64,000 bases of DNA, from positions 124,001 to 188,000 of the forward strand of contig JAIXMQ010000039.1 in NCBI GenBank assembly GCA_025716855.1, given 5' to 3'. Below the pieces are notes generated by a model that was not told the DNA's origin, did no database searches, and saw only the letters and a list, made by a program, of their open reading frames with translations. Shown piece after piece: positions 40,272 through 64,000 of the stretch; the first letter of the stretch is position 1; every line of letters starts with the position of its first letter. The position numbers and the translations under genes were made by a program. Origin of the DNA: Pilaira anomala. Its lineage: Eukaryota; Mucoromycota; Mucoromycetes; Mucorales; Mucoraceae.

Positions 40272-41117
40272 TATAAGCTTGGAATGAGTTCTTTTTTTTT
40301 TTTTTTTTTTTTACAAAATAAAAAGAATACCACTGCTGTTTGGGCACCCCTACAAACCTCTTAGGGATTCGGTATTTAAAAAGGCAGTCAACAACAGGTT
40401 AAATCAATAACTTGTATCGAGAACTACGAGAGTCTATGCTCCCATTGATTATGCCATCCTTTTAAATAGTGTGTTACTAGATCTCTTCTGGATCAAACTG
40501 ATAAAAAAAAAACTCAATAGATAGCGGAATTACCTCGATAAAAAAACGAACAATAATCAACCAAAAGAACACAATGCATTTTTTAAAGTTGTAAAACTTA
40601 GTTGTTTTACTACTACGAGCCCTTTTGAAACGACCATTAAATTACAGTAGTAAAATTCCTATGCTACACTTCATGTTTGCTAATCTTAATTAGTTTTTTG
40701 ATAAAGAAAAAGGATGTAAAAATGACCAAGATTTCTTATTTATGAAAACATATTTTTAGTATTTTTTAGACTATTTGATTGGTCGAAAAAAAAAGATATA
40801 TGGTTTAGCTTTTTGAAATGGTTTTCTCTCAGAATCATAAATGAACTACATCTTATTAGCTAAATGATATAAGTACATGGCTGACTCAAGGCATATATAT
40901 ACGACTTATTAAAGTTGGAACTGAAGGTTACGCAGTCGAGGGATTTCTTTTAATGATTTTTATATTTATGATAAATACTAAATTAACAATTACACACCTA
41001 AATATTTTTGTTACAAAAAAGGTAAGTTGGATATTTAAATGTCAGATATCCCTTAATAAAACTTACGTGTAAACGTCAATCAGTTTTTAATACTGAGACA
41101 TGTGGGGGGGTTTTTTT
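40272..41117. other. Region 3' of the Fanzor gene; possible element end
   Basis: About 850 bases without a gene. It would hold the promoter of the small mitochondrial gene and, on the minus strand, the 3' flank of the Fanzor gene, where a guide (omega) RNA would be expected if functional. An inverted repeat TTTTACTACT (40605-40614) and AGTAGTAAAA (40646-40655) could form a stem. Confidence 0.35.
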
Positions 41118-42650
41118 TTATCTTCTGAACATTGCTGGTATTTTGCTGTTGTTAATAATATTCCACCAGGAAATACGATGTATGTTTCTTGAAGCGTTTA
41201 CGTCTCTTTGCCAAATGGTATTACAAGTCTGATTTAAGCAGAGTAATACGCTAAACAAAGGAACACCATCAATCCGAACATTTTGCGTCTTATTTCGAGA
41301 ACAGTTCGAGCATGTCTATTTGGATAAAACAAAAAAAAAATTAGTCTACTTACAAATATAAAATGCTTAAATTGTCATTACTTACCCTGGAAGTCATATA
41401 TTCAGTTACCGGAACAGTTACTAGCAAACCTTCAAGTTCAGCTTTCTTCAATAGTTTGACCATGCGACGTGCCAAACCAGGAATCGTACCTCTCATAGTG
41501 GAAGGAAAGACAGCATCTCCAAGGGCTACAAGCAAGATTTTGTTGTCTTGTTCAAATGGTTTCAGTCTTTTTTTTTTCGAGTCCTTTCTTTTTTCTTCCC
41601 TTTATCCTTTACTGTTGTAGTTCCTTCTGTTCTTCCCTTCTTCCTTTTCTTTCTTATCTTGGGATTTCCTCGCTTCGGGTCATTACCTCTTTGTTTAAAC
41701 TCCCTTTTCAAATACTTCTTTCCTCCTGTTACAAACATATTAACAATTTCTGCATCAGCTCTTTGTCTACCAATATAATTTAAAAATCGGGGAGAAGTAA
41801 CACGATCATCATAAAAAGGTAAGATAGTACCGAGATTGTTAAAAACAGAGTGAACGTATAGGGCAAATGTTTCAATGATGGCAGTCTTGTCTGTTAAGAT
41901 ATTTCTTTCGGCTTGACTAAAATTATTGTCCGCATTTTTCATAGCTGTTTGTTTTCTTGAATCCCGCGCGTGTGTAGTACTCGTCGGTTGAATATTTCCG
42001 TACTTGATGAGGATCTTCGCCATGCCCATCAGAAGCTGTAAAGATGGTTTTTAGTCCAGGATCAACACCCCACAAATGGAATCTTTGGTTAATTTCTTCA
42101 CCAGTAAAATCGTTCAAGTCAAGATCTGGAAGTGCTATCTGTTGTTGTCTTAGACCAGCCAAGATAAAATCAATACCATAACCATCTGTTCGCATCATGT
42201 TGGGGAACATTTCTTTACCATTACTATTAAAAAAAAAAGAGTACTTAGCATACAAATTGACGAAGATGATACACTATGATTATAATATTTACTAATTTAA
42301 ATCAATTCTTAAGAGACCAAAATCAAATACTTCACTAAATAATCTTGTCGCAGCCTCATGTTTCGTATTATCATCTGCATTTTCATCTAATATGCCCATA
42401 TCTACTTCGGTTTCGTTTTGGACCTTCAGTATTAAATATCTCAAATAGGCTATGTCGATTTCAACATACTTTCGGATAAAATTGTACATTGGATCATTTT
42501 CTAAGTTTAAAGCCGTTCCGAAAAGAGAGTGATCACGAATGCACCGAAAAACCAAGAAAGACAGCCTGTTTTTTTTTTCTTTCTGCTGAAATTTTTAAAT
42601 TGGCTGCTTGTTGATAAAAAAACTTTTGATCCATGCATATGTTATGTCAA
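41118..42650 (-). pseudogene. Fanzor (TnpB-like) RNA-guided nuclease, frameshifted copy
   Basis: The minus strand encodes most of a Fanzor protein. N-terminal part: FFYQQAANLKISAERKKKQA near 42610, then LFGTALNLENDPMYNFIRKY (to 42293). An intron (42292-42224) leads to NGKEMFPNMMRTDGYGIDF. RuvC-I is WGVDPGLKTIFTASDGHGED near 42030-42085. Then STDEYYTRAGFKKT, FYDDRVTSPRFLNYIGRQRA, VTGGKKY, LVALGDAVFPSTMRGTIPG and VTEYMTSR. A second intron (41385-41316) leads to the last exon 41315-41118: TCSNC, LLCLNQTC (zinc finger) and WQRDVNASRNI (RuvC-III), stop at 41118. Thus the acids D, E (VTEY) and D are all kept. Frames break at an A5 tract near 41945 and an A10 tract near 41570, each needing one more base, and again near 42575. 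It adjoins a Helitron helicase on the same strand. Confidence 0.85.
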
Positions 42651-42984
42651 CTTGGACTTCGTCGAAGGTTCTGATGTTATCGTTATTGTATGCCTCGAGA
42701 TATTGTAACATTCGATGCATGTGTTGTAAAAAAAAATCCAGGGTTAGCAGATACTGAGGTCAGAGTAATGGGTACGTTTGTAATTTTACAATCAGCGATA
42801 ATAATGTTGGCTAGATTTAAATTTTCGGGTATATTTTCTACTGTTTCAGGCCATGCTAAACCAGTACTTGAATTAATTGAATTGTTAAAGACGAAATGAC
42901 AGAGTGAATTGATATATGGCGCAGTTAAATTCTAAAGAACCATCAAGAAGAAAAGTTAGCAGCTACATCTATATTTACATTGTA

Positions 42985-44457
42985 TCACATTATACTTACA
43001 AAAACTTCTTTCAATCTAATTTTTATATAATTCTTAAGAATTTTCGAGTAATTTTCAGAAACATGAAGAATGAGGGTCTGAGCCGATATATTAGCGAGAG
43101 AGGCAAGTGCATTGGCGTGAACAGTATGACCAGGTTCCATTGTGACACGACTATCGAAAAACTGGCGATTATATTCTTCAAAAACTTCGTTAATGTCTGC
43201 TCGAGGAAGATGCTGGTTGGTGTTTGTTATATTTTTTCCCAATACCTTTTGTACACAAGCGTAGAAAAAAGCTTGGTTAAATATTATGGGTTGCAAAGGT
43301 ATGAAAGACCTATTCGTACACTGCCGAACTACCTCAGATCTACTTGCACTGAGTATAACAGGTAATACTTGTCTGAAATCACCACCAAACACCATCAACC
43401 TTCCGCCAAAAGGTGTTGATTCAAACGCAGAATTTTCATCTTTGAATATATCTTTCAGTGTACGATTAACTGCTTCAAAAATACCTTTGCTTATCATTGA
43501 AGATTCATCCCAAACAATCAACTTTGCCCTTCTAATCAAATCAGCCGCATGAGAACGGGGGGGGGGTATATTACACATGGATGCTGGAGTAACTTTGATA
43601 GGTATACTGAAAACAGAATGTGACGTTCTACCACCTTTTAAGAGTAACGCAGCAGCACCTGTTGAAGCTACAGAGATTGCTATGTTACCGCTTCTTCTCA
43701 CATAATCCAATAGAGCATTGAAAAGTAAGGTTTTACCCGTTCCTCCAGGGCCGTCGACAAAAAAAAAGTCTGGCCTTTGTTGGGTCTTTTATCCCGTTAT
43801 CAACTATTTGTCGAACTGTGTCAAAAACAATCTTTTGATCTTCATTGAATGCAAGTGTAGAAGGATCAATTGATCTAAGAGATTCTTCGATAAGAGCATT
43901 ATGTGTTCTGAATAACAATGGAATATTAACACCACCATCTGTTTATTGTTGCACTCTGGTATCAATCTCAGGAAACACAGATGAAAAGCCTTCCATGGTA
44001 CGAAGATCTAGTCTATGTTCAGCTAAAATATCATTGATATCTAATAGGCAATGCGAATACATATCTTCTGTTATTTCTGTTGGTATCATGTGTCCTTGTT
44101 CAGTTGATAGTCTTACTTCTTGTCGAAAGTAATCCTGAGAAAGGGCATCCTTTTGTTCTAACCATAATCCGAATGGATTTGTACACTCAGAGAAAGCAAT
44201 CATGACAACAAAAAGTCTTCTAAGAGAAGAAGGCATTTGATTCGTAGCAGCTGAAGACCACACAGTGTCATCTGAAAGTAATCCCATATTGTTTTAGTAG
44301 CGATGATCGATTTCAAACGATCTGAATAATACTTGGCTGGAGTAGAGGATTTGGCAAATTCTCCTGTTGTAGTATCAAATAAAAAAGAAGGTGAAAAAAA
44401 CCCAAGCCTAAAATCCAGTTTCATCTTTATATTCTTTTCTTTACATGATTCGTTCAA
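42985..44457 (-). pseudogene. Helitron PIF1-type helicase, partial and broken
   Basis: Three minus-strand pieces follow one another: 44287-43943 (DTVWSSAATNQMPSSLRRLF, DALSQDYFRQEVRL, a block that precedes the helicase in Helitrons), 43918-43733 (STLAFNEDQKIVFDTVRQIV, motif Q/pre-Walker) and 43710-42985. Walker A, VDGPGGTGKTLLFNALLDYV, is visible near 43700-43760 only if a T9 run is read with one base fewer. Then LIVWDESSM (Walker B), FGGDFRQVLPVI (motif III) and NRQFFDSRVTMEP. An in-frame stop also separates the first two pieces. The downstream helicase motifs are missing and the reading frame runs into the Fanzor region. This matches the C-terminal half of a rolling-circle Helitron RepHel protein. 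44457-44200 has further open sequence of unclear identity. Confidence 0.8.
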
Positions 44458-44978
44458 CGTATCAGCCCTATGTATGAGTTAGGCAAACTATGTAGCATTA
44501 TGGACTTAAAAATACGTACCAATATGTGGCCAAATCAATTTCTCCGAAAAATGATTCAATAATACAGCTTTACATTTTCTTTTTTAAATTTATTGGCGTT
44601 ATAAAGATGCATGTCAATGCTAAAAAGTAATCAGTTTATGTTACGTATATTAATACTATTATACTTATTACATAAATATGAAAATATTCTGCATACGTCT
44701 TTCTTCAAAGTCTTTTGGTTCATACTTCTTTATAGTATCACCACTTCTTTTAAGTCTTGCTTAGATTCAAACTTTAACTAAATAAGACCTCTTCCGCTTC
44801 TTCCATTCTTCTTTTGCTTATCTTTATAAGAAAATAATGACTTAGCATTGAACTTTGAACGCTTTATTTAGCAATGAACATTAGGCAAGAGATTAGCATT
44901 GAACTTAGGGAGGGGGTATGGGGGAGGGTCCTCCCCCAAATAATGACTTGGAATAAAACTATGAAAGTTATTGATGGC
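44458..44978. other. Spacer with a GC-rich palindrome
   Basis: AT-rich DNA between the helicase remnant and repeat copy B. A perfect short palindrome GGGGGAGGGTCCTCCCCC lies at about 44921-44938 in otherwise AT-rich DNA, and short direct repeats of TTAGCATTGAACTT occur at about 44853 and 44895. Confidence 0.5.
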
Positions 44979-45519
44979 GGTGCCTAAACCGGATTTGTCA
45001 CGTGAATAAGGTTTTTTATAACTTTTGCATGAAATACACCATTACATCCATTTTTTTTTCACATGGCATACAGGCAGGTTTTTTTTCTCATACGCCACAC
45101 AAACAGGTTTTTTGGTTTCATTATAAATCATCTTTTTTTTTTATTTTTTACTTTCTTTCATCTTTTTATATATATAATCTTCTTTACCGCTACATTTTTA
45201 ATCTTTTCTTTTGCCATACTCCTTATCTAGAGAAGAGATTGTTCCAAGAAAAAAACAGACCTGCATAAAACTACATACTGTTATCAATAGTAAGTCTAAT
45301 AATTTTATCAAAAAATAAATGATTCATTTTGTCTAATGAATTTCAAATAGAAAATGATCCTTTTTTCTTTTTTGTCCAAATTACAAGTGAAGAGAGAACA
45401 AGTTACCTGGTTTTTTTAAAAAAAAACTATTAAGTATTTTGGTGGCTTAACGGCTAGTTGGATCAAATTTCATCCTTGATTTTACTACCTCCTTTTTTAC
45501 TACTCTTTTGCCCAGCACC
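44979..45519. repeat. Inverted-repeat (MITE-like) element, copy B
   Basis: Same orientation and strong similarity to copy A at 19704-20325 (CACGTGAATAAGGTTTTTTA, ATGAAATACACCATTACATC, CTTAACGGCTAGTTGGA). The right end reads TTCATCCTTGATTTTACTAC, one base different from copy A, and similarity runs on to CCCAGCACC at 45511-45519. The left inverted arm of copy A is not preserved; instead copy B starts near GGTGCCTAAACCGGATTTG. It carries no gene and sits between two Helitron fragments. Confidence 0.65.
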
Positions 45520-45542
45520 CTCATGCTCATATACTTATCATT

Positions 45543-46551
45543 TTGAAGAATTCCGATAAACCTCAGACTACTTATAAATTCGATAGAATCGTTTCAGTGG
45601 AAATCCCAGATAGATCAAACCACCCGCTTGCTTATGGAACTGTCACTACATCCATGATTCATGGTCCATGTGGATTATTAAATCCCGATACACCTTGCAT
45701 GAAAGACGGTAGATGTACTAAACGCTATCCACATAATTTTCAAGAATTTACGACAGCTCATGATTCAATTGAAGGAGGCTATCCTGTCTATCATAGAAGA
45801 AGAGATGGCAATGTAATCATTAAAGATAACATAACAATTGATAATAGATGGGTTGTACCTCATAATTTGTATCTCTCCGCCAAAGTTAATGCTCATATCA
45901 ATAATGTCGAAATATACAGTTCAGTCAATTCAGTAAAATATATTTACAAGTATGTTTACAATGGCAATGATCGTGCTACTGTTAACATTGATGGTCAGGA
46001 AGTTAATTTGGATGAAATTGGTCTTTTTTTTGGATGCGAGAGATGTTTCTGCTGCAGAAGCATATTGGAGAATATTTTCTTTTCCAATGCATAAATAATA
46101 CCCTTCTCATCAACGATTAGCAATACATTTGGAAAATGAGCAAGAAATATACTCTCGAGCAAATGATTCGCCTTCTATGGTATTAAATCGTGAACCAAAT
46201 GAAACAACCTTAACTGCTTGGCTTAAGTACAACCAAACTACAGAGCAAAATGGTGATATGGCAGCCGCAACAGTTCTTTATCCTAAATTTTGTGAAAAAT
46301 ATACATTTTGTAAGCAGTTACAGCCAAGGCAATGGAAATTGAGAGAGAAGGGGATTTCAATTGGTCATATTTTCACCGTTTCTCCACAGCAAGCTGAAAA
46401 GTACCATTTAAGACTACTTCTTTACAAAGTACCAGGTGCAAAATCTTTTGCTGATATACGTACAGTAAATGGTCAGGTTTATCCAACCTTTAAAGCTGCA
46501 GCCCGCGCTATTAATGATCAATTATATCGCAAAGAAATGTCAATCTGTTAA
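45543..46551 (+). pseudogene. Helitron protein fragment, pre-helicase region
   Basis: Plus-strand frames read YGTVTTSMIHGPCGLLNPDT, PCMKDGRCTKRYPHNFQEFT, GGYPVYHRRRDGN, RWVVPHNLYLSAKVNAHINN and IYKYVYNGNDRAT, the conserved block between the Rep and helicase domains of Helitrons. After a frameshift near 46030 and an in-frame stop near 46093 it continues with RLAIHLENEQEIYSRANDSP, CKQLQPRQWKLREKGISIGH and AARAINDQLYRKEM. The Rep catalytic HUH motif and the helicase are absent. It points the opposite way from the helicase fragment at 42985-44457, so the two belong to different copies or to an inverted one. Confidence 0.8.
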
Positions 46552-63308: not shown

Positions 63309-64000
63309 CTGGATTTCCCACTGTTTTTGGGACTCGGTTTGAAAATTGGAATATTTATTATTTTTAAAAAAAAAACTATAGCATCTGCTCTTCAGCTAAG
63401 CAACGAGAAAAAAAAGATACAGAATGTCTTATCCATCCTCTACAATCACTCAAAGTTACTTTAGAACATGATTCTAATATTCTTGGTGTGAGAGTATCCT
63501 TGCCATCGATAGGAGATCTTTTGATACCTGCCTTAACCTTAGACCAAAACTCTTCGATAGGATTCAAAAATGGGGAGTATGGTGGCAAGTAAACACACTT
63601 ATAACCCCTACTGACAATATAATCATTCATAACCTTATCTCTTGGTCCATGGATTGGGGCATTATTCATTACTAGGTAAAAACCTTGCATCTTATTTTTA
63701 TCCAAAACATCCATGACGTTGCAAAGGTAAGCTAAGTAATGGCTGGTATTGGTACCTTTCGTGATTTTGACAGCCTTTCCGTCGAGCTTTCTCTTTTTAG
63801 CATTAGTCGCCGAAGTGGGTTTTCTTAACGATATATCTATAACTCCAGCAGAAGATATAGCTCCTAAAATTTTTATGGATGTACCTCTGTTCGTAGGTAC
63901 AATGGTCTTAGCAGGCTTTCCTTTTGCAGACCATCCTCTATTTCTCACTATATGTAAATTGAAGCCTGCTTCATCTAAAAACACACAGTTGCGCTCAAAA
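63309..64000 (-). mobile_element. Mariner-like element, copy 2 (runs off the window)
   Basis: The end CTGGATTTCCCACTGTTTTT at 63309, preceded by TA, is the same as that of copy 1. The transposase reads leftward and its stop is at 63376. In this copy the subterminal region between the end and the stop is about 60 bases shorter than in copy 1, and it has the ACTCGGTTTGAAAATT variant seen in the left arm of copy 1. The other end is beyond the window. Confidence 0.9.
63376..64000 (-). CDS. Mariner-like DDE transposase, copy 2, N-terminus outside the window
   Basis: The minus strand is open from the window edge to the stop at 63376. It reads CVFLDEAGFNLHIVRNRGWS, GAISSAGVIDISLRKPTSAT, MQGFYLVMNNAPIHGPRDKV and LPPYSPFLNPIEEFWSKVKA. 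It differs from copy 1 at only a few residues (for example SIKILG/SITILG, GVID/GFID, KPTS/KPIS). The second catalytic position is again Asn (MNNAPIH), so both copies share the change. The part inside the window is intact; whether the N-terminus is intact cannot be seen. Confidence 0.85.
   Translation of the reverse strand, partial: FERNCVFLDEAGFNLHIVRNRGWSAKGKPAKTIVPTNRGTSIKILGAISSAGVIDISLRKPTSATNAKKRKLDGKAVKITKGTNTSHYLAYLCNVMDVLDKNKMQGFYLVMNNAPIHGPRDKVMNDYIVSRGYKCVYLPPYSPFLNPIEEFWSKVKAGIKRSPIDGKDTLTPRILESCSKVTLSDCRGWIRHSVSFFSRCLAEEQML

Follow-up and report, generated by a model that had tools for sequence, protein, structure and literature searches.

The window analysed here is a 64,000-nt stretch of the Pilaira anomala genome (contig JAIXMQ010000039.1, positions 124,001 to 188,000), and its minus strand carries, at 43303-40991, a copy of a Fanzor1 element, the extent of which was set by homology to other copies in the same genome. 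The limits given in the original prediction (41118..42650) were too narrow, as the homologous stretch begins at 43303 and finishes with the element itself at 40991. Three other places in the genome, L020, L021 and L022, match the stretch at 95-96% identity, and chance is thereby excluded as the source of the feature. The parts that can be recognised by comparison with the full-length copy L020 are listed in Table 1, together with the adjoining helicase fragment; nothing of the element upstream of the exon 3 remnant has been kept.

Table 1. Parts of the Fanzor1 copy and the adjoining helicase fragment, from 5′ to 3′ on the minus strand (window coordinates)
Feature	Position	Strand	Basis
Helitron-type PIF1 helicase fragment, 161 aa	43305..43788	-	Pfam PIF1, E=6.3e-54, residues 3-161 of a 267-aa open frame
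Fanzor exon 3 remnant	43000..43303	-	Homology to full-length copies starts at 43303; exon limits from L020
Intron 3, GT...AG, 68 nt	42932..42999	-	Splice scan; counterpart of the 71-nt intron 3 of L020
Fanzor exon 4 remnant	42293..42931	-	Alignment to L020
Intron 4, GT...AG, 69 nt	42224..42292	-	Splice scan; intron 4 of L020 is 69 nt long, phase 2
Fanzor exon 5	41386..42223	-	Motifs; alignment to L020; pairs with SpuFz1 D383 and E541 via profile A2
Intron 5, GT...AG, 70 nt	41316..41385	-	Splice scan; phase 0 in L020
Fanzor exon 6, with stop	41118..41315	-	Pfam TNB, E=7.2e-5; pairs with SpuFz1 D606
Element 3′ non-coding end, finishing AGGTGTGTA	40991..41117	-	Candidate omega-RNA scaffold and 3′ terminal repeat; 3′-end genome search, 11-copy alignment and pair counts

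The motifs on which the original prediction was built (GVDPGLKTIF, GDAVFPSTMRG and VTEYMTSR, followed in the last exon by TCSNC, LLCLNQTC and WQRDVNASRNI) are all present on the minus strand where they had been placed. The GTAAGT...AAATAG intron that separates the two groups is the 70-nt intron at 41385-41316, with a phase 0 counterpart of 68 nt in L020, and two further introns were found at 42999-42932 and 42292-42224. The resulting junction between MTSR and TCSNC, which had been expected for the family, is continuous as TSR/K-x-CSNC in six of seven aligned database homologues. All three catalytic acids are retained: exon 5 holds the Asp of the RuvC-I DPG motif (codon 42063-42061), the GDAVF strand and the shifted Glu of RuvC-II (codon 41403-41401), and the 65 residues of exon 6 include the zinc ribbon (C-x2-C...C-x4-C) and the RD of RuvC-III (Asp codon 41204-41202).

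The surroundings are rich in other mobile-element remains. Helitron-like fragments occupy 43305-46548 on both strands, comprising the PIF1 helicase piece (minus, 43305-43788) and open frames on the plus strand (45480-46548), which we take to resemble the region that separates Rep from the helicase in a Helitron protein; Pfam yielded no match on 45480-46094 of that strand. A repeat of about 0.6 kb, with 83% identity between copies, occurs at 44997-45520 of the window, at L024:1456-1998 and at L060:1532-2173, that is, in the window, within the Fanzor element of contig C160 and adjoining a short Fanzor 3′ end at C113, and may be a small inverted-repeat element. On the minus strand, an open frame at 63379-63999 reaches the window edge and presumably resembles a transposase of the Tc1/mariner type (LDEAGFNLH).

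The Fanzor1 family and its uninterrupted copies

A search of the genome (34.25 Mb in 225 contigs) with the last exon found it at 16 places, one of them in the window (E<=0.001), a figure that is a lower bound on the copy number of the family. Over the element of about 4.46 kb, L020 shares 99.93% identity with L021 and likewise with L022, and the flanks are unrelated. L020 and L022 yield the same uninterrupted protein of 968 residues from six exons and five introns of 57-71 nt, in a predicted gene structure with splice sites placed from sequence and frame; L021, read likewise, stops at residue 135, where an A run separates its reading from that of its two sisters. The near-identity of the three copies and the 968-residue reading common to L020 and L022 indicate that uninterrupted copies of the gene exist and that the family has moved recently. 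The young, intact members of the family lie elsewhere in the genome, and not in the window.

Close to the N-terminus of the L020 protein lies a CCHC zinc-knuckle-like motif, and the spliced protein matches the Pfam TNB domain with 33.1 bits (cut-off 26.3); the last exon of the window copy alone is matched by Pfam Cas12f1-like_TNB at E=7.2e-5, under the curated cut-off. As predicted from these copies, the full form of the family comprises RuvC and a zinc ribbon, preceded by a long N-terminal half without assigned fold and, towards the N-terminus, the CCHC zinc-knuckle-like motif. No paper combining the terms “Fanzor” and “zinc knuckle” was found in the literature searched. The genome also contains a far more divergent Fanzor relic with a last exon about 41% identical (L032:4203-4860, minus strand, on C149).

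Relationship to known Fanzors

Fanzors, the eukaryotic homologues of TnpB, are programmable nucleases and relatives of the CRISPR nucleases. A protein search with L020 returned nine homologues, and the C-terminal part of the M. flavus protein, used as a query in turn, returned 12, itself included. The closest named homologues, from Mucor flavus (MFLAVUS_006482 and others) and Helicostylum pulchrum (HPULCUR_011100 and others), are 50-60% identical and are called hypothetical or TNB-domain only in their source, while one unnamed protein is 64% identical; coverage is 32-100% for these eight homologues. The named ones point to a genome from the order Mucorales. Among the best homologues (P0001-P0008, one of them the unnamed protein), the zinc-knuckle-like motif is present in five of eight, as are all three catalytic motifs. 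Profile A2 was made from 11 of 12 distinct homologues, omitting the Thamnidium protein P0009, in which 9% of the query was matched. The latter (Thamnidium elegans INT48_002413) is a Myb-domain protein model that starts with a Fanzor RuvC-I piece; a Fanzor relic was probably absorbed into the predicted gene.

Searched against solved structures (PDB), profile A2 gave 14 matches up to E=1, including SpuFz1 (E=5.1e-21) and GtFz1 (E=3.3e-7), the remainder being TnpB- or Cas12-like proteins, TranC proteins and one designed repeat protein (E=2.6e-4). No chain named PpFz1 is among these 14, and PpFz1 may be absent from the searched set. In sequence searches of solved structures, homologue P0011 alone matches SpuFz1 at E=6.6e-6, and no Fanzor was retrieved from the PDB with the L020 protein alone, a narrow eight-member profile (A1) or the distant homologue P0012. 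An AlphaFold model of the M. flavus homologue from alignment A2 was too poor for a fold search (mean pLDDT 46.8, pTM 0.27).

The profile alignment bears out the assignment to Fanzors: SpuFz1 D383, E541 and D606, which are the metal-binding acids of that protein (PMC10432273 and PMC11423790), pair with the DPG Asp, the TEY Glu and the QRD Asp, the last of these in the final exon, by hand count on the printed A2 alignment. The L020 protein also contains the Fanzor motif D-X(125,275)-[TS][TS]-X-X-[C4 zinc finger]-X(5,50)-RD (PMC3627910) in our own rendering of the pattern, with D676, a spacing of 225, TS at 902, the zinc finger at 906-935 and RD at 941-942; in the window copy, these parts sit in separate frames. 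Its DPG at 676 and its E899-x6-C906 agree with the description of Fanzors in PMC10711439, with DPG at RuvC-I and a rearranged catalytic Glu six residues ahead of the zinc finger, and the D-to-E spacing of 222 and the C-x4-C second pair lie outside the TnpB search pattern given there. SpuFz1, too, has a C-x4-C second zinc-finger pair in the A2 alignment. What had been proposed as a Fanzor with all three RuvC acids and a hidden last exon is indeed one, and can be specified as Fanzor1 with the D-E-D set in the rearranged order; the near-intact state ascribed to this copy was not upheld.

Since Fanzor1 families of Mucor, Rhizopus and Phycomyces were described in 2013 (Bao and Jurka, PMC3627910), and PpFz1 has been characterised, the find belongs to an already known kind. 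As described there (PMC3627910), the elements of Mucor circinelloides, Rhizopus oryzae and Phycomyces blakesleeanus (MCi, ROr, PBl) are likewise Fanzor1 and multi-copy DNA elements of Mucorales, and MCi-2 of M. circinelloides has a comparable combination of variable 5′ parts and a conserved 3′ part. In contrast to the target duplications of 11-12, 9 and 6 bp given there for MCi-2, MCi-4 and MCi-5, nothing convincing beyond TA is seen in the present family. SpuFz1/Spu-1 of Spizellomyces punctatus (Saito et al. 2023, PMC10432273; PDB 8gkh) has the same catalytic residues in the alignment, and its elements share with ours a conserved non-coding 3′ end and a pair of conserved bases right before the 5′ inverted repeat, CA in theirs and TC in ours. 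SpuFz1 is a single-ORF protein of 633 residues (length from PMC3627910), as opposed to 968 residues in six exons here, and the present family additionally has the N-terminal zinc-knuckle-like motif and, from FVTGGKKY to VALGDAVF, an intervening lysine-rich stretch for which the printed alignment shows no counterpart in SpuFz1. PpFz1 of Parasitella parasitica, a fungus parasitising Mucorales, is a Fanzor1 with a RuvC insertion as a further likeness, and its motif (PMC11423790) is 5′-ATN, as against the TCTA predicted for the present family.

Element ends, mobilisation and decay of the window copy

Full copies of the element start with TC-TACACGCCC and finish with GGTGTGTA. The 3′ end gave 19 matches in the genome, some of them partial, 17 of which extend to the last or second-last base, and the 5′ end gave 8 matches at 7 places; TA is found at both ends of the four complete copies. 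In a search for target duplications in 30 bases on each side of 10 copies, four of them complete at both ends, no 9-bp direct repeat was detected beside the ends, and the longest match, of 8 bases, lies away from them. Matches in L021 (8 bases, 5 of 200 shuffles) and L026 (7 bases, 7 of 200) were considered as target duplications and attributed to chance, as the matched words are away from the ends. The 9-bp target site duplication of the MuDR-type Fanzor elements (MCi-4, ROr-4 and PBl-3) was accordingly not found here.

Within its first 406 bp, the Fanzor element has three blocks that resemble an element on C162 which has the repeat at both ends, 3.3 kb apart, and which contains a short frame matching C2H2 zinc-finger models, the best of them just under the cut-off. 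A related 999-aa open frame with a weak C2H2-finger match (L064:1042-4041, minus strand; C159:236641-239640) has eleven equal matches in the genome, its own place and ten more with the same match and frame length, and is a candidate for an abundant DNA transposon. The 999-aa protein has no transposase match in Pfam, and we therefore do not name the superfamily of the mobilising enzyme. To move, the Fanzor element probably depends, as a passenger, on an enzyme of the 999-aa/C162 kind.

Alternatively, the Fanzor segment could be the cargo of a Helitron that captured it, a situation reported for CRe-1 to -3 of Chlamydomonas; we regard this as unlikely. The Fanzor remnant in the window does come after a Helitron PIF1 helicase whose orientation and frame it shares, the helicase frame running directly into it; 3′ ends outnumber 5′ ends, an excess that PMC3627910 reports for Helitron-borne Fanzors; and full copies start with the Helitron-like TC. 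However, this junction occurs only once in the genome, its halves being found separately elsewhere (10 matches overall), no helicase was seen by eye among the L020 frames of at least 60 aa, the 5′ repeat also forms inverted pairs at C162 and C153, and the 3′ end is GGTGTGTA and not CTRR. Helitron1 is defined by 5′-TC and CTRR-3′ with a 3′ hairpin, and Helitron2, which was judged by eye only, by asymmetric subterminal repeats and two hairpins; the present elements have the TC start and a short 3′ hairpin, yet they differ in their 3′ end and in having a complementary repeat that is terminal. The helicase half of the window junction is 97% identical to C139:8673-8772, and the Pfam match stops at the junction. 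We read the junction as one local rearrangement rather than as Helitron capture.

The window copy itself has decayed considerably. Relative to L020, about 1,990 nt are absent at the 5′ side, a loss of some 257 codons that takes in exons 1-2 and a large part of exon 3, and the exons differ in length by +1, +1, +2, -156, -11, +2 and +3 nt, five of these changes being frame-breaking, one an in-frame insertion and the 156-nt deletion in-frame as well. The latter lies in exon 4 near 42493, together with three frame-breaking insertions, and exon 5 has two frame-breaking indels. Exon substitutions, 58 in total, are spread near evenly over the codon positions (18/17/23 at 656, 656 and 658 sites). The earlier view that only two or three one-base changes in A tracts separate the copy from an open frame, and that it is very young or its breaks are errors, has to be abandoned: what the window holds is a decaying remnant, cut short and joined to a piece of a Helitron, and not a nearly open gene. 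It should not be expected to yield a functional nuclease.

That the open stretches, together with the helicase fragment, have been kept in the service of the host, as a domesticated or regulatory gene, is very improbable: a 267-aa open frame does span the junction, but the substitution pattern is even, exons 4 and 5 have frame breaks, and the junction is present once in the genome. Least probable of all is an intact gene with breaks that are sequencing or assembly errors: several length differences do sit in A runs, and L021 diverges from its sisters at an A run, but homopolymer errors do not account for the 156-nt and 11-nt deletions or for the 5′ loss of about 2 kb, and the exon substitutions are spread near evenly over the codon positions. 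We put a probability of about 0.93 on the reading of the window feature as a dead, 5′-truncated copy of a multi-copy Fanzor1 transposon, belonging to a 4.46-kb, six-exon family that most likely works in a Fanzor-like manner.

Candidate omega-RNA and predicted target motif

From its kinship, the family likely has an omega-RNA at the 3′ end of its elements, where the conserved non-coding sequence is the candidate. RNAalifold on the 3′ ends of 11 copies gave 27 pairs, four of them changed on both sides, a number reached in 5 of 500 shuffles, so that the covariation support is modest; the single-sequence fold of the 3′ end was not better than shuffles (z=-0.35). In L030, the most divergent of the 11 copies, differences fall on 10 of the 72 sites that align within the last 86 positions, as opposed to 26 of 64 third codon positions (p=0.0005, in a test chosen after the data were seen), and this contrast is absent in the other ten copies, e.g. 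L027 with 7/86 versus 2/60. A transposase-binding repeat would give the same constraint on the 3′ end as an omega-RNA. In the mechanism that we propose, the omega-RNA scaffold would come from the 3′ non-coding end and extend to the terminal GGTGTGTA, and host sequence just beyond it would be the guide; the Fanzor-RNA complex would then cleave the empty site that matches the guide, beside a short motif predicted to be 5′-TCTA, and such cutting would help the element to be kept or recopied.

The motif is predicted from the insertion sites. A 21-base pattern of the 5′ repeat, with up to three mismatches, was found at 16 places, namely five Fanzor copies and 11 others, none of which adjoins a Fanzor last-exon or 3′-end match. 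TC precedes the repeat in 5/5 Fanzor copies, three of which are close sisters with different flanks, versus 1/11 of the other places (Fisher p=0.0014). In these 11 places, the first two bases differ from TC in 13/22 cells, versus 13/209 cells in the remaining pattern, placing TC outside the shared repeat. For SpuFz1, PMC10432273 gives CATA as the TAM and CA as the bases that precede the 5′ repeat; the corresponding TAM of the present family would be TCTA. TC could be a part of the subfamily's own end. That it is a footprint of the nuclease, only insertions beside TCTA being recognised by the Fanzor and hence kept or recopied, is a tentative reading to which we give less than even odds.

The importance of the window copy is as a pointer to its family. 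P. anomala harbours a recently active Fanzor1 family, with three near-identical 4.46-kb copies, two of them with the same uninterrupted gene, beside many relics. With intact copies, relics and 5′-repeat places that have no Fanzor 3′ end in a single genome, the role of the Fanzor in mobility and its target motif become testable. If the footprint reading is true, this natural set of insertions would show a Fanzor acting in the spread of its own transposon, and would yield its TAM without experiment.
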